DNA of 23,799 bases, taken from positions 1 through 23,799 of the IMG/VR virus record IMGVR_UViG_3300028837_001616; one strand, written 5' to 3'. The stretch's first letter is position 1; each line of letters starts with the position of its first letter. The position numbers were made by a program, and so were the translations under genes. The notes under the pieces are model-generated. The model was not told where the DNA came from. It saw nothing but the letters and a program-made list of their open reading frames with translations, and made no database searches. Positions 657-23,799 of the stretch are shown one piece after another. The DNA is from a virus.

Positions 657-1448
657 TTATGCCAACCTTATCCAACAACCAGTCCATGTAGAATAATTTC
701 CAGTTTGATATAACCACCTTCCATCTTCTGCTTCTACCTCTTCTCCTTTCCAACGTCCTTGTGCAGAACTATAAACATGTTTTACTCCATCAAGGTATCC
801 TAAAAGCACATTGGTTCCAACATCATAGAAAGGTGTTTCTTCAAACACTTGCTGACCACTTGATGTTCGTGTGTAATTAAAAGTTGAATTGTAATTCTGA
901 GCACGAATTTCTTGGTCCACTGATGCAGAATGATTCCATAGAGTTCTCTGAAATACTGTTGTATTTGTATTTTGGTATCCAAGAGGATTATACCAAGATG
1001 TAGTATTCCCGGATGACCTGCCTATAATAAATGGCATATTTTTTGTTGTGTCAAATCGCTTTGGCTGTCCAACATAATGTGCAAGATAATTATAAGCAGT
1101 AGCAATTATAACTCTGTGGTCATTATAAACAACATGAGTACCTCTTACTCCATAGAATCTAATTGTGTTGGTAGAATCAGGGGAAGTTACACTATCTCCT
1201 GTTCCTGCATGGGTTGATGTATCCCATCCTTCCCAAAGTTCCACAGTAGAAAAGTCAGCTTGGTTATCATCAACAGACACATAATAATCCACATTGTTTC
1301 CAGAATCATTACAACGGTAAACTTTATGATTTGTTCCTGCGGAAGCATCATAAACAGACCACTTGGAATTATTTACAACAATACCATCCCAAATGGCACT
1401 CAGCCTACTCCCTGCAGAATCATCAACATTTACAAATTCATAAGCCAT
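657..1448 (-). CDS. Tail-tip/fibre protein, paralogue B of a tandem pair
   Basis: The 263-residue product is a clear paralogue of the protein encoded just upstream (1448-2254). Both carry a block at residues 27-46 reading NS-x-WSVYDASAGTN-x-KVYRC, followed by a beta-rich domain with a DNQA(D/N)F motif near residues 60-66 and a W-D-(T/A)-S turn. The start ATG overlaps the upstream TAA as TAATG and is preceded by a perfect AAGGAGG site five bases away. No catalytic motif is visible. Phage tail-tip modules often carry duplicated beta-rich adhesin or fibre-head genes, so a structural role in host binding is likely but inferred. Confidence 0.86.
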   Translation of the reverse strand: MAYEFVNVDDSAGSRLSAIWDGIVVNNSKWSVYDASAGTNHKVYRCNDSGNNVDYYVSVDDNQADFSTVELWEGWDTSTHAGTGDSVTSPDSTNTIRFYGVRGTHVVYNDHRVIIATAYNYLAHYVGQPKRFDTTKNMPFIIGRSSGNTTSWYNPLGYQNTNTTVFQRTLWNHSASVDQEIRAQNYNSTFNYTRTSSGQQVFEETPFYDVGTNVLLGYLDGVKHVYSSAQGRWKGEEVEAEDGRWLYQTGNYSTWTGCWIRLA

Positions 1449-2254
1449 TATTCCTCCTTGATAAGACTAGCATATCTTGTGCCAGATGTACCTTCAATAT
1501 ATCTATAATTTTGAGCACTGATAGTCATATAGTCATCATTGTCCCATCCTGCAACTGTCCAGAATGACATTACATTCTCCATCACACCCAAAACTAAAGT
1601 AGTATTTTCATCCCAAATAAGAGACGGACGGAACATGGCATAGTCATCACTTGTTCTCCAAATACAAGAAGTTCCTGCCGTGTAATTCATACTCACTCTC
1701 ATGCTTCCATTAGAACCAGAAAGTGCTCTCCAAACAGCACTGCTCCCCTCTGCAGAATATGACAAAGGATTATACCCATTAGCATAACCTGTACTGGACG
1801 TGATGAGAACAGGAACTTGCCTCTCCAATTTGTGCTGACTTGAAACAGGTTTCAAGCAACCTATATAATTACCTTCCCATTCCAATTTATCAACCCAAAT
1901 AAATCTATGGTCTAACACACTTAAATAATAACCACTTGCACTTTTTGAAATATATGGATACTGAACACTGGTATTCCCATATGTTATACTCAGAGCACCA
2001 TCATGAACATGTGCTGATGCATCCCAAGAATCATACATATCTATTCTGGCAAAGTTGGCTTGGTTATCCTGAACATGAATGTAGAACTCAATAGGTGGGT
2101 CATTAGATGCATCAAGACATCTATAAACTTTCTCATTGGTTCCTGCAGAAGCATCATATACAGACCAATTTGAATTAGCAACAAGCAACGAATCAAACAC
2201 AGTGATGACTGCACCAATTGCACTTACATCAGTTGCACTACTTGTCCAAGCCAT
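1448..2254 (-). CDS. Tail-tip/fibre protein, paralogue A of a tandem pair
   Basis: The 268-residue protein shares its N-terminal block (residues 27-46, WSVYDASAGTN core) and overall beta-rich layout with the next gene downstream. The similarity is still visible in the DNA (about 2096-2185 against 1291-1379), which points to a fairly recent duplication. The C-terminal halves differ more, as expected if they bind different ligands. The start ATG lies behind TAGGAGA. The gene begins 12 bases after the stop of the repeat-rich stalk protein and its TAA overlaps the next ATG. It is probably a fibre or tail-tip subunit; no enzyme motif was seen. Confidence 0.86.
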   Translation of the reverse strand: MAWTSSATDVSAIGAVITVFDSLLVANSNWSVYDASAGTNEKVYRCLDASNDPPIEFYIHVQDNQANFARIDMYDSWDASAHVHDGALSITYGNTSVQYPYISKSASGYYLSVLDHRFIWVDKLEWEGNYIGCLKPVSSQHKLERQVPVLITSSTGYANGYNPLSYSAEGSSAVWRALSGSNGSMRVSMNYTAGTSCIWRTSDDYAMFRPSLIWDENTTLVLGVMENVMSFWTVAGWDNDDYMTISAQNYRYIEGTSGTRYASLIKEE

Positions 2255-4494: not shown

Positions 4495-5174
4495 TACATG
4501 CTCCTAAAATCTTCAATATCAATTCTAACCATTGCCTCTGACCAATAGATGTTCCCTGTCCAACCTCTCCAAAGTGTAGCAACATCAGGTACAGGTGCTC
4601 CCCTGTATGTTATCTTTAACAACATCTCTCTGTTTTCATAAACATAGTCAGTCAACCTAGAATCAAAATGTCCATCTGTATTTATGAGACCTATTGCCCC
4701 AAAGGACTGTCTGACACCACCTTCATAATAATCTGTTACCGCTAAAGTAATATCAGGTACTGATTCAGAATTTAGATATGGAAGATAATATTGTGAGTTA
4801 TATATAACTGGATTGTCTTCATCCTGTGAGTTACAAAAATAATCCCAAAACTCACTTAGAATTATATACTTTGTCCCGGTTCCTGGGTCATCAGAATCTT
4901 CCATGTGAAGATACAATCTTGGTGGACTAACAGAAGTATCATAAAACCAACTTGAAGAATTGACATCCAAAATTGCAAGGCTTGCTCTTTCTGTATAACT
5001 GGTGTCTCTTTCCAAAGCACCCACCACAATTCCATCATCATGCTCAATGTACCAACAATTGGTGTACGTTCCATGTTGTGTCCAAGAGTCACCATCAATT
5101 CTGTGACCAAGTAGAAGCTCAATTAAAAAAATCTTCTCCCAGTCTGGGTTGCTAAGTATATCTGAAAATGCCAT
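4494..5174 (-). CDS. Tail hub N-terminal partner protein
   Basis: The 226-residue protein ends with a region (about 160-226: GLINTDGHFDSRL, then ENREMLLKITYRG, LWRGWTGNIYW and VRIDIEDFRSM) that matches the beta-barrel pattern of phage tail hub/baseplate proteins, where a G-x-I-x-NTDG-x-FD turn is followed by a strand pair and an RGW(T/I)G-type turn. The gene lies immediately upstream of the larger hub gene, with TAATG overlaps on both sides, so the two products probably form one hub complex and may be a split version of a single Tal/gp27-like protein. No catalytic residues were seen. The first 120 residues are beta-rich and unassigned. Confidence 0.78.
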   Translation of the reverse strand: MAFSDILSNPDWEKIFLIELLLGHRIDGDSWTQHGTYTNCWYIEHDDGIVVGALERDTSYTERASLAILDVNSSSWFYDTSVSPPRLYLHMEDSDDPGTGTKYIILSEFWDYFCNSQDEDNPVIYNSQYYLPYLNSESVPDITLAVTDYYEGGVRQSFGAIGLINTDGHFDSRLTDYVYENREMLLKITYRGAPVPDVATLWRGWTGNIYWSEAMVRIDIEDFRSM

Positions 5175-5995
5175 TATCTCATTTCCTCAAGTAGAATATT
5201 TGTTGACCATATTTGGGCATCACCCAAATGCTTAGACATAGCACCTGGAAGAGAAACAACTTTTCTAACATCATCAATTTCTCCTGTAGTAAATCCCCTG
5301 GAAATATTTATATCTGGTTCCCAGTATGTGCCAAGAAATATTCTTCCTATTCTGTGGTGAAAAGTACAATAAGGACAGTCATCCATGTCACCTCTTATCA
5401 CAACCTCTGTCTCATCCTCAGAGTTCATATAAATACGCCAGTATCTGTAGGTCTGTACAGAATCCCAGAACTTGACAAGAGGATGCATTGGATAATGGAC
5501 ATCAAGTGCAACATCAACAGATGGAGAACCCCAAGAATCTGTGGCGTTAGCTTGGATTCTAATATCTGAAGTTGGAAGCCACCAATGATAATTGAGAATA
5601 AAACAAGTCACATCTTGTGCAGAACCAAGGTCTATTACTATAGACTGCTCTCCACCAGACTCACTTCTCCAATGTTTGTGAGTCCACCTGTGTTGAATAC
5701 GGTCTGCCTCAAAATTCAACTGTTCAGATGAAGGAGTCAATGTGGCAGAATCAAACAGATTGTCCCACATAAACCTTATCTTTGTCCAGTCTCTTTCAAC
5801 TGGGTCAGTCATAGCATCCTGCCATTGATACCAACAATAGTCCATACTCCAATGTTCACCAAAAGGCATGAATCTCCAATAGTAAAGTCTTGGTGGATAC
5901 CCAACAGTTGAAGACCTTACCCTGGCAGGAATATAGTTATCAGGAAAAGACACAAACCGTGCCATTCCTATCTTGTCTTCAAACACATCTGCCAT
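5174..5995 (-). CDS. Discoidin (F5/8 type C)-like tail-tip protein, paralogue 2
   Basis: The 273-residue protein has a discoidin-like beta-sandwich at about residues 68-230: KIRFMWDNLFD, an H-x-RW-x-x-K-HWRSE segment, the SIVIDLGSAQDV strand, NATDSWGSPSVD, then YRYWRIY and IGRIFLGTYWEP. It shares these blocks and the terminal EEMR with the protein encoded at 7204-7962. It differs by a longer N-terminal extension (about 65 residues, aromatic-rich) and by a short insertion, DDCPYCTFHH, with a CxxC pair just before IGRIFLG. F5/8C-like domains usually bind carbohydrates. The start overlaps the upstream TAA as TAATG. It is probably a distal tail or tail-tip adhesin. Confidence 0.82.
   Translation of the reverse strand: MADVFEDKIGMARFVSFPDNYIPARVRSSTVGYPPRLYYWRFMPFGEHWSMDYCWYQWQDAMTDPVERDWTKIRFMWDNLFDSATLTPSSEQLNFEADRIQHRWTHKHWRSESGGEQSIVIDLGSAQDVTCFILNYHWWLPTSDIRIQANATDSWGSPSVDVALDVHYPMHPLVKFWDSVQTYRYWRIYMNSEDETEVVIRGDMDDCPYCTFHHRIGRIFLGTYWEPDINISRGFTTGEIDDVRKVVSLPGAMSKHLGDAQIWSTNILLEEMR
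5513..5545 (-). repeat. DNA repeat shared between the two discoidin-like paralogues (copy 2)
   Basis: These 33 bases match 7681-7713 at 32 positions. They encode the ATDSWGSPSVD block. Such near-identity over a divergent paralogue background could come from strong constraint or from gene conversion between the two copies. Confidence 0.85.
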
Positions 5996-7203: not shown

Positions 7204-7962
7204 CTATCTCATCTCCTCAACATCAATATTAAGTGAAAACCAATCATCCATAAATATGTGGTCAATGTTCCAGTCCGTTCTGTTTTCCACATAGTAAGTT
7301 TTACTAGCTCCTGAATCAGCATCTTGTGCAATGAAGTATGGTTTTGATTGTCCAACTTCATCAAAAATCTCTTCAAAATTTTCCTCTTCTGGTGATTGTA
7401 TAAATTGGAATTCATATGAAAATTTTCTAAAATGTGACTTTAGATTTGAAGACACTTGACCACCACTTGAATATGCTTTTCCTGAAGGGTCTGCTAAAGT
7501 ATATCTATGAGCATCAGTGAAGTTTGCAGTTGGCTCAAAATACGGACCCAGAAAAATACGTCCAATTCTTAGATAGGTGTCAGGATTGCTGTCATCTACA
7601 AGTGATATTCTCCACCACCTGTAGCTCTCAGATGCAGACAGAAAGTGGTGTATAGTTCTTGCGTTATAGGTCACCGTCTCATCAACAGATGGAGAACCCC
7701 AAGAGTCTGTGGCATTGCCTTGAAGCTTGATAGTAGCTCCGCTTGTTAAGTTGTGGTAATGAAGAACCAGTGCTTGGACAGATTTGGCTTCTCCAAAATC
7801 TATCTTTATCCACTCTGAAGCATCGTCTGTTGTTCTCCAAGCTCTTGTGTGCCATCTGTGGTATGTGTGCACATCTTCATAACCTGTCTCTTCAGAAGAG
7901 GATGTAACTGTGTGGTCCGGGTCATCCCAAAGGTTGTTCCATAGGAAACGAATGTTTTTCAT
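7204..7962 (-). CDS. Discoidin-like distal tail protein, paralogue 1
   Basis: The 252-residue protein begins directly with a discoidin-like domain (about 1-145: NIRFLWNNLWDD, WIKIDFGEAKSVQALVLHYHN, NATDSWGSPSVD, YRWWRISL, IGRIFLGPYFEP). A second domain follows (about 150-252) with an SSGGQVSSNLKSHFRKFSYEF strand run and a helix, EEENFEEIFDEVGQSKPYFI, a layout found in phage tail-tip proteins next to the tape measure. As the first gene after the tape measure, it occupies the usual distal-tail (Dit) position. The ATG is one base after the tape measure stop, with AGGTGA inside the end of the tape measure gene. The Dit role is inferred from position; a lectin-like role comes from the fold. Confidence 0.82.
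   Translation of the reverse strand: MKNIRFLWNNLWDDPDHTVTSSSEETGYEDVHTYHRWHTRAWRTTDDASEWIKIDFGEAKSVQALVLHYHNLTSGATIKLQGNATDSWGSPSVDETVTYNARTIHHFLSASESYRWWRISLVDDSNPDTYLRIGRIFLGPYFEPTANFTDAHRYTLADPSGKAYSSGGQVSSNLKSHFRKFSYEFQFIQSPEEENFEEIFDEVGQSKPYFIAQDADSGASKTYYVENRTDWNIDHIFMDDWFSLNIDVEEMR
7681..7713 (-). repeat. DNA repeat shared between the two discoidin-like paralogues (copy 1)
   Basis: This partner of 5513-5545 differs at one of 33 positions (A to G) and encodes the same ATDSWGSPSVD block. Confidence 0.85.
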
Positions 7963-17604: not shown

Positions 17605-17746
17605 CCTTGTTGCTCCTTCTTAAAACCAACAACACCTTTTCTTGCTTTGGATAAATCACATGTTCATTTCCATATGCATCCCTTATGTATACATCTGTAT
17701 CTGTTTTATTTTTGTACGTCTTCTTGGTGAGCCTAACCTGTGTCAT
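17582..17746 (-). CDS. 54-residue protein of unknown function, first small gene of the connector operon
   Basis: An ATG at 17746-17744 forms an ATGA overlap with the TGA of the upstream gene, and the frame runs to a TGA at 17584-17582 inside the start of the adaptor gene. The product begins MTQVRLTKKTYKNKTDTDVY and continues with IRDAYGNEHVIYPKQEKVLL, a probable small beta barrel with basic character (many K and R). The coupled junctions on both sides, and the fact that its end carries the ribosome binding site of the adaptor gene, support a real gene. It is likely a small structural or regulatory protein. No family was recognised. Confidence 0.75.
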   Translation of the reverse strand: MTQVRLTKKTYKNKTDTDVYIRDAYGNEHVIYPKQEKVLLVLRRSNKDDRTGTN

Positions 17747-17991
17747 TTTTTACCGTAGTCCTTATGTTGTCTCCAGACTCTTGGTGCAACACCTGTCTTC
17801 ACAGCTTGCTCCACCAACTCATCAATTTCCTGAATCAATGCATTCCTCTGGTTGTTCAGGTCATTAATTTTTAGCTTGGCTCTACCCACAGCCTTCAGTT
17901 TTGACTTTGGGTTGTGGGCTATATCTTCAGTGTGGTAAATCTTCAAATTCACCACTGTCAACTTGTCAATCAAACTTCCTATAGTTTCCAT
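17743..17991 (-). CDS. DUF4254-like small protein
   Basis: The product has 82 residues and starts METIGSLIDKLTVVNLKIYH; it continues with TEDIAHNP, an R-x-K-x-KINDLNNQRN helix and ALIQEIDELVEQA. The ID-x-L...K-x-x-H-x-ED...NP ... ID/N-x-x-NNQRN...EID pattern resembles the DUF4254 family, which occurs near glycosyltransferase genes; this assignment is from memory and unverified. I chose the ATG at 17991-17989 over one 18 bases upstream because TGGGGT lies at a usable distance and the upstream ATG has no site. The gene starts the leftward operon and ends in an ATGA overlap with the 54-residue gene. Its role is unknown; the family link fits the nearby glycan genes. Confidence 0.72.
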   Translation of the reverse strand: METIGSLIDKLTVVNLKIYHTEDIAHNPKSKLKAVGRAKLKINDLNNQRNALIQEIDELVEQAVKTGVAPRVWRQHKDYGKK

Positions 17992-18004
17992 GTTATACCC
18001 CACA

Positions 18005-18049
18005 CCCATATAGTGGTGTATTACAAGAATACCCCCATATATAGGTGCA
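18005..18049. repeat. Two operator-like direct repeats with inner dyad
   Basis: CCCATATAGTGGTGTA (18005-18020) and CCCATATATAGGTGCA (18034-18049) are imperfect direct repeats 29 bases apart. Each is partly palindromic: the first contains ACACC (18002-18006) facing GGTGT (18015-18019). Two such sites in a divergent intergenic region suggest regulator binding; no binding protein is identified. Confidence 0.55.
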
Positions 18050-18082
18050 TAAAATTATTTTTAAAATACTTGCTAAAAACAC

Positions 18083-18111
18083 TTGACAACCACCTTATTT
18101 GGATGTATATT
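18083..18111 (+). promoter_or_regulatory. Sigma70-type promoter for the plus-strand cassette
   Basis: TTGACA (18083-18088, consensus) and TATATT (18106-18111, five of six) are separated by 17 bases. A start point about seven bases after the -10 box falls at 18118-18120, right at the ATG of the first cassette gene, so its mRNA would be leaderless or nearly so. Confidence 0.8.
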
Positions 18112-18120
18112 ATATATGCA

Positions 18121-18267
18121 ATGAGAAAGAAAGAGAGACAAGCCATCAAAGCCCCCCGGAAGCCCATTCAAGGTCACTACGGTCTTGAGTATGCTTTGGC
18201 TCATATGGGTGAAGACCTCTCAGACGTTCTCAAGCATCTTGAGTCTGAACAAAGGAGAAACAAATGA
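18121..18267 (+). CDS. 48-residue basic protein, first gene of the plus-strand cassette
   Basis: The frame encodes 48 residues (MRKKERQAIKAPRKPIQGHY..., ending ESEQRRNK), with basic ends and an amphipathic helix (GEDLSDVLKHLESEQ). An in-frame ATG at 18103 would add six residues but lies inside the promoter, so 18121 is preferred. No Shine-Dalgarno site precedes it, in line with a leaderless transcript. Its TGA overlaps the ATG of the next gene as ATGA, and its end carries that gene's AAAGGAG site. It may be a small DNA- or RNA-binding or regulatory protein, judged only from charge. No family was recognised. Confidence 0.68.
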   Translation: MRKKERQAIKAPRKPIQGHYGLEYALAHMGEDLSDVLKHLESEQRRNK

Positions 18268-18662
18268 GTGAAACAAGATGGATTAAAGGACAGGACAGAC
18301 GTTGGCACGAAATTGGTCCTGATGACCGTGACTGGAACTGGGGTATCAGCAAGGAAGAGTTGGACAGTAGCATTAAGATTGCTAATGGTCAGGCTTGCCC
18401 TGCTTGCTCCAGTGACCAGATTGACATTGCCAATGGAATCAGGCAGTGCCGTTCCTGCAACGGAATCTTTACCACCAGGGAAAATTCCATTCCGCTCAAC
18501 AAGGCAGTGGAAATTGTCAACATCCGTAAGATGGAAGAAGGCCGGACTGACCCCTACCACAACCAATACTTTGACTTCTACATTGAACATCCTGACTTCA
18601 CCATCACCAGGGTTCACGGATGGTTCAACAACATCACCAGACGTGTTACTCAGTTTGGATAA
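18264..18662 (+). CDS. Zinc-ribbon protein, second gene of the plus-strand cassette
   Basis: The 132-residue protein contains a zinc-ribbon at residues 45-65 (CPAC at 45-48 and CRSC at 62-65, 13 residues between pairs). Its C-terminal domain ends HGWFNNITRRVTQFG, a motif I associate with short phage and bacterial proteins of unknown role. The start is well supported by AAAGGAG six bases upstream and by the ATGA overlap with the 48-residue gene. It is followed by an intrinsic terminator. The gene is read against its surroundings, from its own promoter. Zinc ribbons of this size can bind nucleic acid or protein, so a regulatory role is possible but not shown. Its last 13 bases overlap the converging NoeA-like gene. 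Confidence 0.85.
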   Translation: MSETRWIKGQDRRWHEIGPDDRDWNWGISKEELDSSIKIANGQACPACSSDQIDIANGIRQCRSCNGIFTTRENSIPLNKAVEIVNIRKMEEGRTDPYHNQYFDFYIEHPDFTITRVHGWFNNITRRVTQFG

Positions 18663-19951
18663 CATCCTTCAGCCTCATTGAGACCCGGACTTGTTCCGGG
18701 TCTTTTTTTATATAGTAATACCGCTCTTGGATGTGGTGTCATGGGAGCCACTTCAATCAACTTAAAGTGCTTCTTGAATGCACTCATAAAATTCACTTCA
18801 GTATACCCCGGCATATCCACTCCAAATTTGTTCATCTGTCCAGTCAAACATTTGTCTGTGTTTGGTATCCACTCAATCATCAAATACTTGCCTGTGTACT
18901 TCCACAACTGCTCTGCTAAATCCTCAAAGCTAACCTGCCTGAAGTAGCATAAATGATGTATCAATGCTATGCATAGAACTAGGTCACATCTAAATCTCTC
19001 AGTTGCAGGTCTGTGGTTGGCATACGGTTCATATTTGTCCATCACATTAAAGTATGCACAAGTCACTGGCAGGTCTTCCACTTTGGTCTCTTTGTAGAAC
19101 TGCTCAATCACTCCCTCATCAATGTCCACAGATACGGCCTTCTTAACCCCATTGGCAAGCATACACCTTGTGAAGATTCCCCTTGACGCTCCTATGTCAA
19201 GGACTGTCTCAACATTGCCGTGTAGATGTCTTTGAAACATCTGGGTTGCATCCCCATACTTCCCTGCATGAGTCTCCGGCTTGTCCACATCCATTCCCTT
19301 TGGCAATGCCTGGGAATATTTTGACCACTGTGTTTTTCGCTCTGGTGGTTGAAGCTCCTTTACCATCTTGATGCTCTCTGTGTATAGGTGCTCCGGGTTT
19401 GTATATTTATAAACCAGATTGTTCAACATAGCCTTGTTGACACCAAGCCAAATTCCCCAACCTTGGAATGGCCTTTTCCTACCCAACCAAAACTGCTCTG
19501 CCAGTCTTGTCACATTTGGCAGGTCAGGATGGATAGAATCATAGTCAAAATATATTGGCCTTGAGTTCTTGAATGTCACGTTGTTTATGTGTGGGTCATG
19601 TAGACTGAATCCATGTCTTCTCAGAAACCTCTGGAGTTTCAGAATCATAATGACTGCATCCTTCTTCTGTTGGAATGTCCAGTCATGGACCTTAGTCTGA
19701 TGGTTGAATCTTTCATGCTTCAGGATATAGTTTCCTAAACCTGTCTTTCCAAGAAACTCAGTTTTAATCAATCCAATACGCTCCAAGTGTCCGGCAATCT
19801 CTTTTAACTCATCCATTTTTAATATCAGCTTTGGTGTATATATAACCCTGTAGATTTTACCATCCACTTCACCAACAATACCCCACCGTTTGGACCCACT
19901 CATATTCTTGGCTCTTAATATGGATTCAATATCATTTAGAGACATATCCAT
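18650..19951 (-). CDS. NoeA-like two-domain class I methyltransferase
   Basis: The protein has 433 residues from the chosen ATG; the frame also has a GTG six bases upstream (19957) and an ATG six bases downstream (19945). Counting from the GTG, residues 119-141 (LHDPHINNVTF, then YFDYDS) resemble a kinase-like loop HDxHxxN plus a D-x-D-S strand, as found ahead of the methyltransferase domain in NoeA-type proteins. Residues 252-262 (VLDIGASRGIF) are the SAM-binding motif I, 276-281 (SVDIDE) is motif II-like, and 325-340 (DLVLCIALIHHLCYF) is motif IV-like. It would transfer a methyl group, probably to a sugar or small glycan. The last 17 residues are encoded by the plus-strand terminator stem and beyond, and look like a non-conserved tail. 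The start overlaps the sulfotransferase gene. Confidence 0.82.
   Translation of the reverse strand: MDMSLNDIESILRAKNMSGSKRWGIVGEVDGKIYRVIYTPKLILKMDELKEIAGHLERIGLIKTEFLGKTGLGNYILKHERFNHQTKVHDWTFQQKKDAVIMILKLQRFLRRHGFSLHDPHINNVTFKNSRPIYFDYDSIHPDLPNVTRLAEQFWLGRKRPFQGWGIWLGVNKAMLNNLVYKYTNPEHLYTESIKMVKELQPPERKTQWSKYSQALPKGMDVDKPETHAGKYGDATQMFQRHLHGNVETVLDIGASRGIFTRCMLANGVKKAVSVDIDEGVIEQFYKETKVEDLPVTCAYFNVMDKYEPYANHRPATERFRCDLVLCIALIHHLCYFRQVSFEDLAEQLWKYTGKYLMIEWIPNTDKCLTGQMNKFGVDMPGYTEVNFMSAFKKHFKLIEVAPMTPHPRAVLLYKKRPGTSPGLNEAEGCYPN
18681..18709 (+). terminator. Intrinsic terminator of the plus-strand cassette
   Basis: AGACCCGGA (18681-18689) and TCCGGGTCT (18695-18703) form a perfect nine-base-pair stem with a five-base loop, followed by a T7 run (18703-18709). 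It lies 19 bases after the zinc-ribbon gene's stop. It is also inside the converging methyltransferase coding region, where it codes part of the C-terminal tail; in that direction no U run follows the stem. Confidence 0.93.
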
Positions 19952-20729
19952 TCCCACTCAACAAAAAATCCAATTTACTTTTGACCTTTTTCTTCTCTGC
20001 CCCACTCACCCACTTGTGCCACTTATCTGTTACAGGAAACTGTAGCTTAGTTTTATGCATGAATCCACCCAACATCTGGAGTCCATCATTCTGCCCACGC
20101 TCAACAATTTCTTCAATCTCTGGCCTTGTTAGTGGAACTCCAAAATGGTCATACACCTTTTCAAGCCATGGCACTGGTTCAGTTATCAAGTCCTCATACC
20201 TCATCACAATTGCTCTATCTTTGAGTGCCTTTTGAGCCTTTCTTAAATGCCCCCACCACTCTATATACAAGTCACACATGTCATTGATACCAACTACCTT
20301 TCCAAGCTGTTTATATACCTTTTGTCCTTTTGGATTATTCCTGTACTGGAACATGGCAGAAGCAATAGTATCATACGGATGTCTGTGCATCAAAATCACT
20401 TTACTCTCCGGGAACATTCCCTGTGTAATCTCCGGTATATATGGAGCTAACCACGGATGCTTCAGCACCAAGGTATCTCTCTTTGTCTTCTTCATCAATG
20501 CACCATAGTGGGTCTCAATGAATGCTTTGACTGCAGGATGGAAACAAGCATTGTAGTCTGCCCCAAATAGGTCAGCATATTGCTTCTTCCACCGTGCTAC
20601 CTTGGTCACCAAATGAAAGAGATGGTTTGGCTCTGCATACCCAGTTTCAATCCTTGGGTTAGCTCTCATGTAAGACAGGAACATGGTAGAACCTGTCCTT
20701 GGGAAGCTAAAGTGAAAGTTAATTTTCAT
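19932..20729 (-). CDS. Sulfotransferase (PAPS-dependent)
   Basis: The protein has 265 residues from the ATG at 20729. The longer frame to 20798 is unlikely because it would overlap the previous gene by about 80 bases. Residues 6-15 (HFSFPRTGST) are the 5'-phosphosulfate-binding loop and residues 114-124 (LMHRHPYDTIAS) the 3'-phosphate-binding motif with R116 and S124, both typical of PAPS sulfotransferases. It would transfer sulfate to a hydroxyl or amino group of a carbohydrate, by family. Neighbours are methyltransferases on both sides in the same overlapping operon. The enzyme is cytosolic (no signal peptide). The length is typical for bacterial sulfotransferases. The acceptor is unknown. 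Confidence 0.9.
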   Translation of the reverse strand: MKINFHFSFPRTGSTMFLSYMRANPRIETGYAEPNHLFHLVTKVARWKKQYADLFGADYNACFHPAVKAFIETHYGALMKKTKRDTLVLKHPWLAPYIPEITQGMFPESKVILMHRHPYDTIASAMFQYRNNPKGQKVYKQLGKVVGINDMCDLYIEWWGHLRKAQKALKDRAIVMRYEDLITEPVPWLEKVYDHFGVPLTRPEIEEIVERGQNDGLQMLGGFMHKTKLQFPVTDKWHKWVSGAEKKKVKSKLDFLLSGNGYVSK

Positions 20730-21363
20730 ATCGTCTGCATATCCAAAGCTCACGCTTCTTTCCATAAATGGTAAATGGCTTGAGCAACTTGAATCCAAAT
20801 TTGTCCAGTGCCTTCAACAACCAACCATGTGATGGAATCACATTGTTCCACTCTCTCTGCTCTTCTCTTATACTCACCTGCTTCATGTCTGCGTCCACCC
20901 ACATCTCAATCACAAGCACATCATTGGAAAGGTCACACGCCTTTTTCAATTGCCGTGCGTATCTCTGCAATGGGAAGTGATGTAGAACGCCTAAGCAGAG
21001 CACTATGTCAAACATCCCATACAAGGATTCAAGTGTGTCTCCATGGGTCTCCAGGAAGTCAATCTTCTCAAACATCAACTGCTCATCTGAGAATCCAAGC
21101 TCTTCCTTGGCTCCATTGGCAACCTGCAACAACCAGTCCACATTATCAATACCAAGTGCAAACAATGCACCAAGCTCCATTGCCTCTATCGCTCCATAAC
21201 CCTCTGAACAACCGATGTCCAAAACCATCTTGTCCCGGAAGCCTATTCTCCTTTCCAAGATGTCCCACTTCTGTGTGGCATTTTTGTGCTGTTCATTCAT
21301 GATAGGATATGGCTCACCTCTAACCTTGTTCCGTATTGGCTCAAAGATTTCTGTGTGTCTCAT
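20719..21363 (-). CDS. Class I SAM-dependent methyltransferase
   Basis: The protein has 214 residues from the ATG at 21363, which has AAAGGAG five bases upstream and overlaps the preceding TGA as ATGA; a longer frame (to 21381) has no site. Motif I is at residues 47-56 (VLDIGCSEGY), with IDNVDW near 72-77 (acidic motif II), and 118-131 (MFDIVLCLGVLHHF) is the motif IV/V region common in small-molecule methyltransferases. The C-terminal part (about 170-214) is helix and strand rich with no extra domain. The substrate is unknown. Gene context (glycosyltransferase, FkbM, sulfotransferase) points to a sugar. Confidence 0.86.
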   Translation of the reverse strand: MRHTEIFEPIRNKVRGEPYPIMNEQHKNATQKWDILERRIGFRDKMVLDIGCSEGYGAIEAMELGALFALGIDNVDWLLQVANGAKEELGFSDEQLMFEKIDFLETHGDTLESLYGMFDIVLCLGVLHHFPLQRYARQLKKACDLSNDVLVIEMWVDADMKQVSIREEQREWNNVIPSHGWLLKALDKFGFKLLKPFTIYGKKRELWICRRYEN

Positions 21364-22136
21364 ACATCTCCTTTTGTACATAATATATTTCTGAATGGAA
21401 GACCTTGTTCTTTATACTTAATCACCCACTCAAGATTGTCATCTGTTACCTCACCAAGTTCCTTGGTTCCCTGTAGCATCATCCAGACATCAAACCCCAA
21501 CTCTCTCAACATGCTATAGTAGTCCCTAATGTCATGGTCTCCATTTTCAAAATTTTCCTCTGAGAACTCAGTCATGATTGTAATGTTTGGGTTCTCCTCA
21601 ATCACTCTGGTCATTCCCAACAAGACAGGAACTTCATTGCCCTCTGTGTCTATCTTCACAAAATCCACCCGGCTTCCAGGCTTGAAGTAGTCATCCAGGC
21701 TTGTGATGTTTATATCCACATGGCCTGTAGTCTCTGGAACTTCAAACAAGCTGTGATGTCCTGAGTTCTCCCCGGTAAGATACAGCTTCACCGTAGTATC
21801 CAAACTCCGCTCACCAACTGCCCTTCTCCAAAGTGATGTGTTCTGTGTGTTGTTTAATGCAGTATTCTCTTCCAAATACAGGAAGTTGTTCACCTCAGGT
21901 TCAAATGCAACCACCACACCATCTGGTCCAACCCAGTGTGACAGCAACAATGTCCAGTAGCCTATGTGAGCACCAACGTCCACTGTAATGTCTCCCTTGT
22001 TTACAAACCTCTGACAGATAACTGATTCTGTTGGCTCCCACAATCCTTGTTTCCAGAGCCTGGAAGATATAATATCACCCTCACCCTGCAGAGCCATGTC
22101 AAACTTGCCTATCCTTTTTTGTCTAACTGCTTCCAC
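21360..22136 (-). CDS. FkbM-family methyltransferase
   Basis: The protein has 258 residues and starts at a GTG (22136-22134) with TTGGAG five bases upstream; the upstream stop lies 11 bases inside, giving an overlap of 14 bases. Residues 51-60 (TVDVGAHIGY) are motif I, FEPEVNN (78-84) is the acidic motif, and SLDDYF ... VDFVKIDTEGNEVPVLLGM (146-175) is the signature region of FkbM-type O-methyltransferases. Family members often methylate sugars or glycosylated products. It lies within the overlapping glycan operon. An ATG at 22097 is an alternative start but would remove the N-terminal helix and has weaker support. Confidence 0.9.
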   Translation of the reverse strand: MEAVRQKRIGKFDMALQGEGDIISSRLWKQGLWEPTESVICQRFVNKGDITVDVGAHIGYWTLLLSHWVGPDGVVVAFEPEVNNFLYLEENTALNNTQNTSLWRRAVGERSLDTTVKLYLTGENSGHHSLFEVPETTGHVDINITSLDDYFKPGSRVDFVKIDTEGNEVPVLLGMTRVIEENPNITIMTEFSEENFENGDHDIRDYYSMLRELGFDVWMMLQGTKELGEVTDDNLEWVIKYKEQGLPFRNILCTKGDV

Positions 22137-22857
22137 GTATATACTCCAATTGTTCTTTTATTTTGTCCGGCTTTTGTATCTCCGGGTCATCTTCCCACCA
22201 CGTCCTCATAATTCTCATATCAATAGTAGACCTGCCCATTAACTTATGTAATGACAGCCTGTGTGAACCCTGCACAACATGTGCCTTATCCAGTGCAAAC
22301 CAGATAGGTTCATCCATCCATGCTTTGTAGTCATTCCTCAAATCTCTCACCCGGCTGTGGTAGGCAGGTTCCCTTCTAGCAATCAAAGGCCACAAGTCAT
22401 TCCACATAGGAATGTTAATGGGAACGTTTGTCACCACCACATCCTCTCTAAGAGCCGTGAAGTCCATTCCAATGCTATGGGGTATCCTTGGCATACGTAT
22501 TGCCACTACAAGCATCCTGGTGCTTCCAGTATGGTGTATATACTCAACTGTGAAACCCATATCTGCAAGTCTCCGTGAAAGCCTCAGAAAAGTGATAGGA
22601 GTATATCCGGCAATGCGTCTTGGCTTCTCACCAAATGAATGCTCATCCTCTACGCTTTTTTTCACTGCCATTTCCAGGAATACTCTCTGCCGTGCACAGT
22701 ATGTCAGCTTGGCAAGCCATTCTTCATATTGCACATGGTCATCAGCAAAATGCAATGTGTTTGGGCACACCACAGAATCATACTTCATAAACTCTGATGG
22801 TGCAGGTTTAAACTTCTGGATGTCGCCCTTGTTGATAACAGTTAAGACTTTACCCAT
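22123..22857 (-). CDS. Methyltransferase-like protein lacking motif I, with ParB-like C-terminal part
   Basis: The 244-residue protein has no G-x-G motif I. Residues 27-65 (YDSVVCPNTLHFADDHVQYEEW, then ARQRVFLEMAVKK) resemble the motif IV to V half of a class I methyltransferase, as if the SAM-binding half were missing or encoded elsewhere. The C-terminal part (about 165-215) contains ARREPAYHSRVRDLRNDYK and AHVVQGSHRLSLHKLMG, the latter like the V-x-(D/Q)G-x-HR motif of ParB/sulfiredoxin-like domains. GAGGG upstream supports the ATG. It overlaps the glycosyltransferase end by 16 bases and the FkbM gene by 14. Function uncertain; it is possibly a degenerate methyltransferase or a partner protein. 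Confidence 0.68.
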   Translation of the reverse strand: MGKVLTVINKGDIQKFKPAPSEFMKYDSVVCPNTLHFADDHVQYEEWLAKLTYCARQRVFLEMAVKKSVEDEHSFGEKPRRIAGYTPITFLRLSRRLADMGFTVEYIHHTGSTRMLVVAIRMPRIPHSIGMDFTALREDVVVTNVPINIPMWNDLWPLIARREPAYHSRVRDLRNDYKAWMDEPIWFALDKAHVVQGSHRLSLHKLMGRSTIDMRIMRTWWEDDPEIQKPDKIKEQLEYIRGSS

Positions 22858-23799
22858 GGTTCCCTCACTTTATCTTTCCAATCTGGATTTAAACGCTTTA
22901 CTTGCTCCACGGTATTTAATATCTGCCGTTCTTCATATGGATTGAAATTCCAAACAGCCTTGAATGCTTCTACACCCTTCTGCCATTCCCTGTCCTGTTT
23001 CCGTTTATCAAAGCTCTTAAACACTGCCCCATGCTTATGGTAGAATGTTGTTGCGTAGGTCTTCACAAGGTCATGCCCTGATAACCTGATTCTCAACAGA
23101 TGGTCTTCATCTGACTGATACCTGGGAGCAAAGTTTCTAAATGGTCCTATCTCTTCCATGCACTCCGTTGAAACTAGCAACGCTGAATAATCCCCGGCTT
23201 GCATTACCTGAACTGGTTTCTCAATTCCTTTTACCATCTCATGAAAATGCAATTGGTCTGCTTCATGTTTGTTGACAACCTGCCCAGTCACAGCATATGC
23301 CTTCCGTCTCTCCGCAACTTCAACCACTATGTCCACATATAGTGGACTTAGTATGATGTCATTGTTGCACAGGAGCACATAGTCATAGCCTTCTATCCAT
23401 GCCTTCTTCATTGCAAGGTTCCATGCTTCCGGCACGTTCATCTGCTTGGACAAAATGTCTATGCTGTTGTCCATGCACCATTGTTGTGTGCCATCCTCAC
23501 TCTCATTGTCTATCACAAAAATGTCATAGTTATGGAAGCTTCTAACACTGTCTATGCACTGCTTGGTAAGGTCCAGGAAGTTGTAGGTCAAAACCGTCAC
23601 TAACACCTTTTTTGGCTGTGTATGATGTCTTTGGACTTCATCAGCAACTGTCTGTGGGTCTATGTTCAAACACTGTGGAGACTTGGTGACTTCCTTCTCC
23701 TGCATGTTCCGGCCTGGAAGACACTTGAGTGTCCACCAACATCTGTTCCGTTCTCCCACCGGACATGGGACTTGGACACAGGTCACCTTCTCATAGTCC
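22842..23799 (-). CDS. Family 2 (GT-A) glycosyltransferase, 5' end outside the window
   Basis: The frame is open to the right edge, so the gene is partial at its 5' end; an in-window GTG at 23786 and ATG at 23705 are alternative starts. From the GTG, VTVLTYNFLDLTKQC (about 63-77) and IFVIDNESEDGTQQW (about 90-104) are the nucleotide-sugar binding strands; DYVLLCNNDIIL (about 135-146) holds an NND in place of the usual DxD metal site. QSDEDHLLRIRL (about 224-235) fits the acceptor-side ED motif. It would add a sugar to a glycan. The N-terminal 30 residues before the domain have five to six cysteines (CVQVPCP, NRCWW, KCLPG) and are unusual. It leads the glycan operon seen here. Confidence 0.87.
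   Translation of the reverse strand, partial: DYEKVTCVQVPCPVGERNRCWWTLKCLPGRNMQEKEVTKSPQCLNIDPQTVADEVQRHHTQPKKVLVTVLTYNFLDLTKQCIDSVRSFHNYDIFVIDNESEDGTQQWCMDNSIDILSKQMNVPEAWNLAMKKAWIEGYDYVLLCNNDIILSPLYVDIVVEVAERRKAYAVTGQVVNKHEADQLHFHEMVKGIEKPVQVMQAGDYSALLVSTECMEEIGPFRNFAPRYQSDEDHLLRIRLSGHDLVKTYATTFYHKHGAVFKSFDKRKQDREWQKGVEAFKAVWNFNPYEERQILNTVEQVKRLNPDWKDKVREPWVKS

Follow-up and report, generated by a model that had tools for sequence, protein, structure and literature searches.

Gene content of the island

The window analysed here, which comprises an entire IMG/VR record (IMGVR_UViG_3300028837_001616; 23,799 bases), is a fragment of a tailed phage with its tape-measure, tail, tail-assembly and neck genes on the minus strand. 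Our subject is an island of six overlapping minus-strand open reading frames (ORFs) at 18650-23799. An initial annotation had named five enzymes in this overlapping run, a GT-A glycosyltransferase, an FkbM methyltransferase, a second class I methyltransferase, a 3'-phosphoadenosine-5'-phosphosulfate (PAPS) sulfotransferase and a NoeA-like methyltransferase; all five are present, with Pfam scores above the curated cut-offs. Transcription proceeds from the GT2 gene through P5, FkbM, the CmoB-like methyltransferase and the sulfotransferase to the NoeA-like gene, with a short DUF4254 gene next. The overlap of the ORFs suggests a single transcript, and the numbers of promoters and terminators counted around the island were not above those of shuffled sequence. 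The genes and the 3' boundary are as follows, with S-adenosylmethionine abbreviated as SAM and L100 denoting a related contig.

22842..23798, minus strand: C-terminal part of a GT9-GT2 double glycosyltransferase, a Cys-rich GT9 end followed by a GT-A (GT2) domain (PF00535); 5' end cut by the contig end
22123..22857, minus strand: P5, half of a methyltransferase with SAM-binding motif I lost and a ParB-like C-terminal motif, VVQGSHRL; homologue in L100
21360..22136, minus strand: FkbM-family methyltransferase, probably a sugar O-methyltransferase (PF05050, TIGR01444, phrog_8156)
20719..21381, minus strand: class I methyltransferase, CmoB/Methyltransf_9-like (PF08003); homologue in the L100 island
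19932..20729, minus strand: PAPS-type sulfotransferase (Sulfotransfer_3; PF13469, PF00685), likely ATG start at 20729
18650..19957, minus strand: NoeA-family kinase-methyltransferase, kinase at about residues 1-205 and methyltransferase at about 207-421 (alignments with three phage and 78 bacterial members)
17743..18009, minus strand: short DUF4254 protein, likely start at 17991 (PF14063, 49.4 bits); homologues in contigs L001, L011 and L100
15523..17604, minus strand: neck/head-completion genes, 3' boundary of the island (weak match to phrog_5, tail completion/Neck1; synteny, 33-86% identity in relatives)

Comparison with cultured phages was made by tblastn against 50,697 phage records, in which the sulfotransferase, the NoeA-like protein, P5 and GT9 had no match. 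This agrees with the earlier remark that no phage with this combination is known to have been described. Relatives were also sought by scanning 2.9 million viral contigs.

Sulfotransferase and NoeA-family kinase-methyltransferase

The sulfotransferase call is strong. The Sulfotransfer_3 model scored 76.9 bits against a cut-off of 27 and was matched over positions 6-215 of 216, while PF00685 gave 46.9 bits. Used as a query, the protein returned one relative at 88% identity, encoded on G001, a 69-kb contig from another metagenome; the G001 protein scored 72.7 bits with Sulfotransfer_3, and the ratio of nonsynonymous to synonymous change (omega) for the pair was 0.09. The loops that bind the 5' and 3' phosphates of PAPS, FPRTGST and RHPYDTIAS as read from the sequence, are intact in both proteins. 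The phage records examined, all of them fragments, gave no match for an adenosine-5'-phosphosulfate (APS) kinase, for which the control was positive in 11 of 14 genomes, or for a sugar epimerase, for which it was positive in all 14. The substrates thus seem to come from the host. G001 also carries a second, different sulfotransferase (32708-33406, minus strand; L005:12708-13406; Sulfotransfer_1, 27 bits), which lies past the tail genes next to a PAS-like protein, in a region that the window stops short of. This protein likewise had no tblastn match in cultured phages.

The last enzyme of the run was originally described as a NoeA-like methyltransferase. The family call is right over both domains, and the description needs an extra, N-terminal kinase-like domain. 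The protein matched an FtsJ-type methyltransferase fold at 27.8 bits (cut-off 24.1), and tblastn against plasmids found relatives across both domains, down to 2e-12. One of these, on a Rhizobium plasmid, has nodL on one side and a sulfatase-like gene on the other, as in the known nodL-noeA-noeB order. In bacterial genomes, a profile scan turned up at least 478 confirmed relatives spread over many phyla. Across 41 aligned members, the class I methyltransferase motifs are invariant, as are R37, D121, N126 and D138 of the kinase domain, the equivalents of K72 (here Arg), D166, N171 and D184 of protein kinase A. The Lani_1194/NoeA family has been described as kinase-methyltransferases in which Arg replaces the usual Lys, with R38 named as the Lys equivalent (PMC9758233), and the invariant residues match this description. 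With the key residues of both predicted domains conserved, we assign the phage protein to the NoeA-family kinase-methyltransferases, and it probably does more than methylate.

Structural comparison was informative mainly for the methyltransferase half. The AlphaFold model of the whole protein reached a predicted local distance difference test (pLDDT) score of 86.7, and in a fold search the methyltransferase half matched many solved methyltransferases, with Z up to 18. The rows listed mainly cover the methyltransferase (residues 207-421); the kinase half is barely represented in them and had no PDB sequence match to its profile. NodS and a methylphosphate-capping enzyme are among tied rows, and therefore no methyltransferase specificity can be read from them. 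WbdD was not among the matches listed, the rows being occupied by the methyltransferase domain. Among viral models, the sole good full-length match was a giant-virus protein from Mimivirus LCMiAC01 (template-modelling score 0.65-0.68).

In a quick tree of the family, the three proteins from phages group together with 100% support, a very long branch separating them from rhizobial NoeA (Rhizobium T136) and from all bacterial members, and the viral-contig scan found the family in this phage group only. Of 78 bacterial loci, 39 encode nearby, mostly directly downstream, membrane proteins that fall into a single cluster; these resemble the sulfatase/lipoteichoic acid (LTA)-synthase proteins annotated next to the plasmid NoeA relatives. 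Domain scans of the window and G001 recognised no NoeB-like or alkaline-phosphatase-superfamily gene in the phage island.

The chemistry of the five named enzymes had led the operon to be described as having a Nod-factor-like enzyme set. This description does not hold, and we rejected a plain Nod-factor pathway: models for NodA and NodB had no match in five related phage records (fragments, the island being complete in G001) and strong matches in a rhizobial control plasmid, the sulfotransferase scored only 14.5 bits with the NoeE model, whose cut-off is 500, the phage NoeA proteins form a distant clade and NoeB is missing. The likeness to Nod factor lies in the chemistry and does not extend to the pathway.

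Glycosyltransferases, remaining methyltransferases and P5

The GT2 domain scored 34.6 bits with PF00535 (cut-off 23.3) and, beyond this, matched rhamnosyltransferase and AglJ-type models weakly, with no model for NodC, the chitooligosaccharide synthase, among the matches listed. The original call of a GT-A glycosyltransferase stands, with the correction that the window holds a truncated C-terminal half: the G001 homologue is a 627-residue fusion of GT9 (TIGR02201, 2.5e-6; PF01075, 0.0021) and GT2, upstream of which G001 encodes a further 346-residue GT9-like protein. A 909-residue homologue in L100 exceeds the GT9 cut-off at 50.4 bits. The FkbM protein matched PF05050 at 77.3 bits (cut-off 22.7), TIGR01444 at 82.2 bits (cut-off 37.7) and phrog_8156 at 5.8e-26. 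The second methyltransferase scored 41.1 bits with PF08003 (cut-off 23.8), and the CmoB models matched it at 1e-13, far under their cut-off.

P5 matched no Pfam family and one weak PHROG of unknown function; it had no PDB sequence match, and its predicted model was poor (48 pLDDT). No homologue was found in 889 genomes from three sampled phyla, in a search run without a positive control. The L100 homologue, at 310 residues, is a full methyltransferase (PF13649, 30.6 bits) that includes the SAM-binding motif and has VVDGVHRL in a C-terminal segment, whereas the proteins of the window and G001 retain VVQGSHRL and lack the SAM-binding half. Because of this difference we read P5 as the remnant of a complete methyltransferase that has probably lost methyl transfer and kept a binding role or one like that of ParB. 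An intact P5 enzyme was rejected on the poor model, the lack of a PDB match and the lack of homologues in the sampled genomes and in cultured phages, with the L100 comparison resolving its nature. Alignment of P5 with hhalign gave E values of 0.03 against the neighbouring methyltransferase and 0.064 against a plasmid ParB; the ParB-like name reflects similarity in the motif and should be taken as a lead.

Conservation of the island in related phages

The initial annotation had called for a screen of related phages for the same gene set. G001 carries all island genes in identical order at 66-88% amino acid identity, with a Gp23-like major capsid protein gene (PF07068, 152 bits) immediately on the 5' side and neck and tail genes on the 3' side, all on the same strand. 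In the contig L011, the NoeA-like gene and the DUF4254 gene adjoin the neck genes. A query with the G001 capsid protein returned the contigs L099 (65% identity) and L100 (47%). In L099 a GT9 gene (45%) comes after the capsid gene, with two small ORFs between. The capsid-neck interval of L100 holds a different island: an HNH endonuclease, the 909-residue GT9-GT2 protein, a Methyltransf_9/CmoB-like methyltransferase, a GT2-like protein, another methyltransferase and the P5 homologue; genes for a GT9 and a DUF4254 protein lie ahead of the capsid gene. Neither FkbM nor the NoeA-like protein was seen in this interval, and Sulfotransfer_3 had zero matches across the whole L100 record; another glycosyltransferase and methyltransferase take the place of FkbM, the sulfotransferase and NoeA. 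Because L100 carries this different island between its capsid and neck genes, we distinguish a kept core of GT9, GT9-GT2, the CmoB-like methyltransferase, P5 and DUF4254 from an exchangeable decorating set. The DUF4254 gene is part of the island set, as its family accompanies the GT9 genes in those relatives whose sequences reach that far.

Between the window and G001, omega (NG86) was 0.09-0.17 for the six island genes and 0.08-0.25 for structural genes, with similar synonymous divergence (dS). The island genes are under purifying selection and, given the similar dS and the omega range of the structural genes, have been inherited together with the phage. These results bear on three explanations in which the island is foreign or fortuitous. 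A bacterial island wrongly joined to the phage contig, raised earlier as a possible artefact, was rejected: this junction is found again in G001 and L011, the flanking major capsid protein and neck/tail genes are co-oriented with the island in G001, and the guanine-plus-cytosine content of the window is unchanged across the junction. A chance assembly of genes was rejected because the same genes are open and under purifying selection in G001, and NoeA and DUF4254 recur in a third contig. Bacterium-derived cargo without function for the phage would agree with the fact that all the enzyme families are common in bacteria. We regard this as very improbable in view of the low omega with vertical co-inheritance, the long separate branch of the phage NoeA clade and the recurrence of the site in distant relatives.

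Proposed role and alternatives

Collectively, these results support the earlier reading of a phage operon that could sulfate and methylate a glycan, here as a predicted late operon. Whether the glycan is placed on the virion or on the host envelope had been left open; the position of the island favours the virion. Our preferred reading, to which we give a probability of slightly over one half, is that the island is a modular, late-expressed glycosylation locus of a tailed phage, the short, sulfated, methylated and possibly methyl-phosphorylated glycan of which modifies the virion. A pair of GT9-type (heptosyltransferase-like) domains, together with a GT2 domain, would assemble the short glycan in the cytoplasm from sugar nucleotides supplied by the host. 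FkbM and the CmoB-like methyltransferase would add methyl groups, and the sulfotransferase would add sulfate with host PAPS as donor. The NoeA-type kinase-methyltransferase would phosphorylate a sugar, perhaps the terminal one, and may methylate that phosphate in a WbdD-like manner. The acceptor would most likely be a virion protein from the same operon, the capsid first and then the neck or tail, and the purpose would be an altered surface charge and identity that serves adsorption, particle stability or evasion. We infer the virion as acceptor from the location of the island between capsid and neck genes; the order of the steps, the methyl-phosphate and the purpose are likewise what we infer, and the roles in glycan assembly and decoration rest on family knowledge.

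Several points weigh against this reading. A position in a structural operon is no proof of a structural target, as morons with other roles also occur among late genes, and the capsid gene itself lies outside the window. The GT9 calls have weak scores in G001 (PF01075, 17.9 and 16.9 bits against a cut-off of 22) and are firm only in L100. P5 looks like a damaged methyltransferase, and some parts of the island may be decaying or non-catalytic.

In the main rival reading, what the island changes during infection is the host envelope. GT9 enzymes act on lipopolysaccharide (LPS). Here GT9 would extend the LPS core or another surface glycan, which the sulfotransferase and the NoeA-type enzyme would cap or charge, and receptors would thereby be blocked to superinfecting phage or to the reabsorption of progeny by debris. 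The known substrate of the GT9 family is in keeping with this, as are the capping of O-antigen by the kinase-methyltransferase WbdD (PMC3482155) and the sulfatase/LTA-synthase-like membrane protein near half of the 78 bacterial NoeA-family loci, which suggests envelope or secreted glycans. However, in related lineages the genes sit inside the capsid-neck block, late expression would leave scant time for remodelling, and no NoeB-like membrane partner, flippase or polymerase was recognised in the island in domain scans of the window, G001 and L100; we consider envelope modification unlikely, though worth keeping in view. A minor alternative is hypermodification of DNA bases by glycosylation, sulfation and methylation as a defence against restriction. 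The location of the island among structural and not replication genes speaks against this, as does the resemblance of the GT9, FkbM and NoeA-type enzymes to glycan enzymes, and we regard it as improbable; a Tet/JBP search gave no match and was uninformative, as its control had no match either.

A more specific form of the virion reading is possible, and we offer it tentatively: a serotype-like capsid-neck locus in which a conserved glycosyltransferase core and exchangeable decorators produce a lineage-specific virion glycan, here sulfated, methylated and capped with methyl-phosphate by a kinase-methyltransferase new to phages.

Surrounding regions

An opposite-strand mini-cassette between the NoeA-like and DUF4254 genes lies outside the island:

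17994..18704, plus strand: promoter-like sequence at 18083-18111 (TTGACA-17-TATATT), ORFs at 18123-18267 and 18264-18662, terminator-like sequence at 18680-18704

One of its small ORFs has CxxC pairs and is zinc-ribbon-like, and the strong terminator-like hairpin overlaps the 3' end of the NoeA-like ORF. The cassette is unaligned in G001, where a small membrane-protein-like ORF occupies its place, and it looks like a recent moron.

The tape-measure protein belongs to phrog_1272 (2.8e-50) and has only distant matches in cultured phages. Downstream of its gene, two phrog_8610 paralogues (5174-5995 and 7204-7962) flank a third gene, an arrangement that recurs in G001. Tandem paralogous tail-region proteins number two in the window (657-2254) and three in G001 (34473-36876), as if duplicated or lost between the relatives. 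The capsid protein is of the T4-type Gp23 family (L007:399-1604), with about 27-33% identity to the best cultured phages, and the phage has a long tape measure; the lineage appears to be without cultured members in the collection searched. Five small proteins encoded upstream of the L100 capsid gene (L100:2517-6273) have at their N termini the leader MSKTFTNKE(V/L)F or a near-match, which resembles a common targeting peptide, perhaps for prohead entry. No tRNA gene was found within the window. G001 carries eight tRNA genes beside an extracytoplasmic function (ECF)-type sigma factor (PF07638; L005:7053-8494), which are possible hints to the host.

Relation to known systems

Phage virions, for example those of mycobacteriophages, are glycosylated by phage-encoded glycosyltransferases with capsid or tail proteins as proposed targets, and to our knowledge none of these systems includes a sulfotransferase or a kinase-methyltransferase. 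The island resembles them in its phage-encoded glycosyltransferases and in the proposed capsid or tail targets. A phage-encoded glycosyltransferase acting on the virion has also been suggested for Maravista (PMC11256854). Sulfotransfer_3 proteins occur in OM43 and Synechococcus phages, where their role was called unclear (PMC10580990). These are of the same Pfam family and also from tailed phages; the protein described here, in contrast, has no tblastn similarity to any phage record and lies in a glycan island within a structural operon, while PMC10580990 mentions no glycosyltransferase. Phage glycosyltransferases and phage sulfotransferases were each known already, and it is the combination that is without a counterpart found: a full-text literature search returned no paper joining a phage sulfotransferase, FkbM and a glycosyltransferase. 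Scans of viral contigs with two-row alignments (only two N-terminal patterns each) yielded nothing new.

The phage NoeA-type proteins share with the NoeA/Lani_1194 family (PMC9758233) the two-domain architecture, full-length homology at 20-27% identity to bacterial members and the atypical kinase residues (Arg for Lys, D, N, D). They differ in their very long branch, the absence of a stretch between the domains, an HDPHINN sequence where KDASAYN is usual, and the lack of a NoeB-type neighbour. WbdD, which adds a phosphate and then a methyl group at the last mannose of the Escherichia coli O9a O-antigen (PMC3482155), likewise combines kinase and methyltransferase in one protein and is a model for phosphorylation of a glycan end followed by methylation. 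In the phage protein, whose activity is predicted, the order is reversed with the kinase before the methyltransferase, and the protein ends after the methyltransferase without the C-terminal coiled coil of WbdD (PMC3482155). With Nod-factor genes, the island shares sulfation, methylation and a NoeA-family protein, but no NodA or NodB, no Nod-specific sulfotransferase match and no enzymes for an acyl-chito-oligosaccharide backbone were identified.

Bacterial O-antigen and flagellin glycan loci combine a conserved core with exchangeable decorators at a fixed site. The kept core and swappable decorating enzymes of the phage island follow this pattern at their own fixed site, which, unlike in those loci, is between phage capsid and neck genes; flippase, polymerase and sugar-nucleotide genes were not recognised.

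The island places a phage sulfotransferase in a selected, co-inherited glycan island within a structural operon, for a family whose role elsewhere was called unclear (PMC10580990). If the locus is serotype-like as proposed, this would be the first concrete role for phage sulfotransferases. If the virion carries the glycan, serotype-like charged surface sugars could influence how particles adsorb, how stable they are and how they are recognised, and there would be a simple system in which to look for the reaction of the uncharacterised NoeA family.

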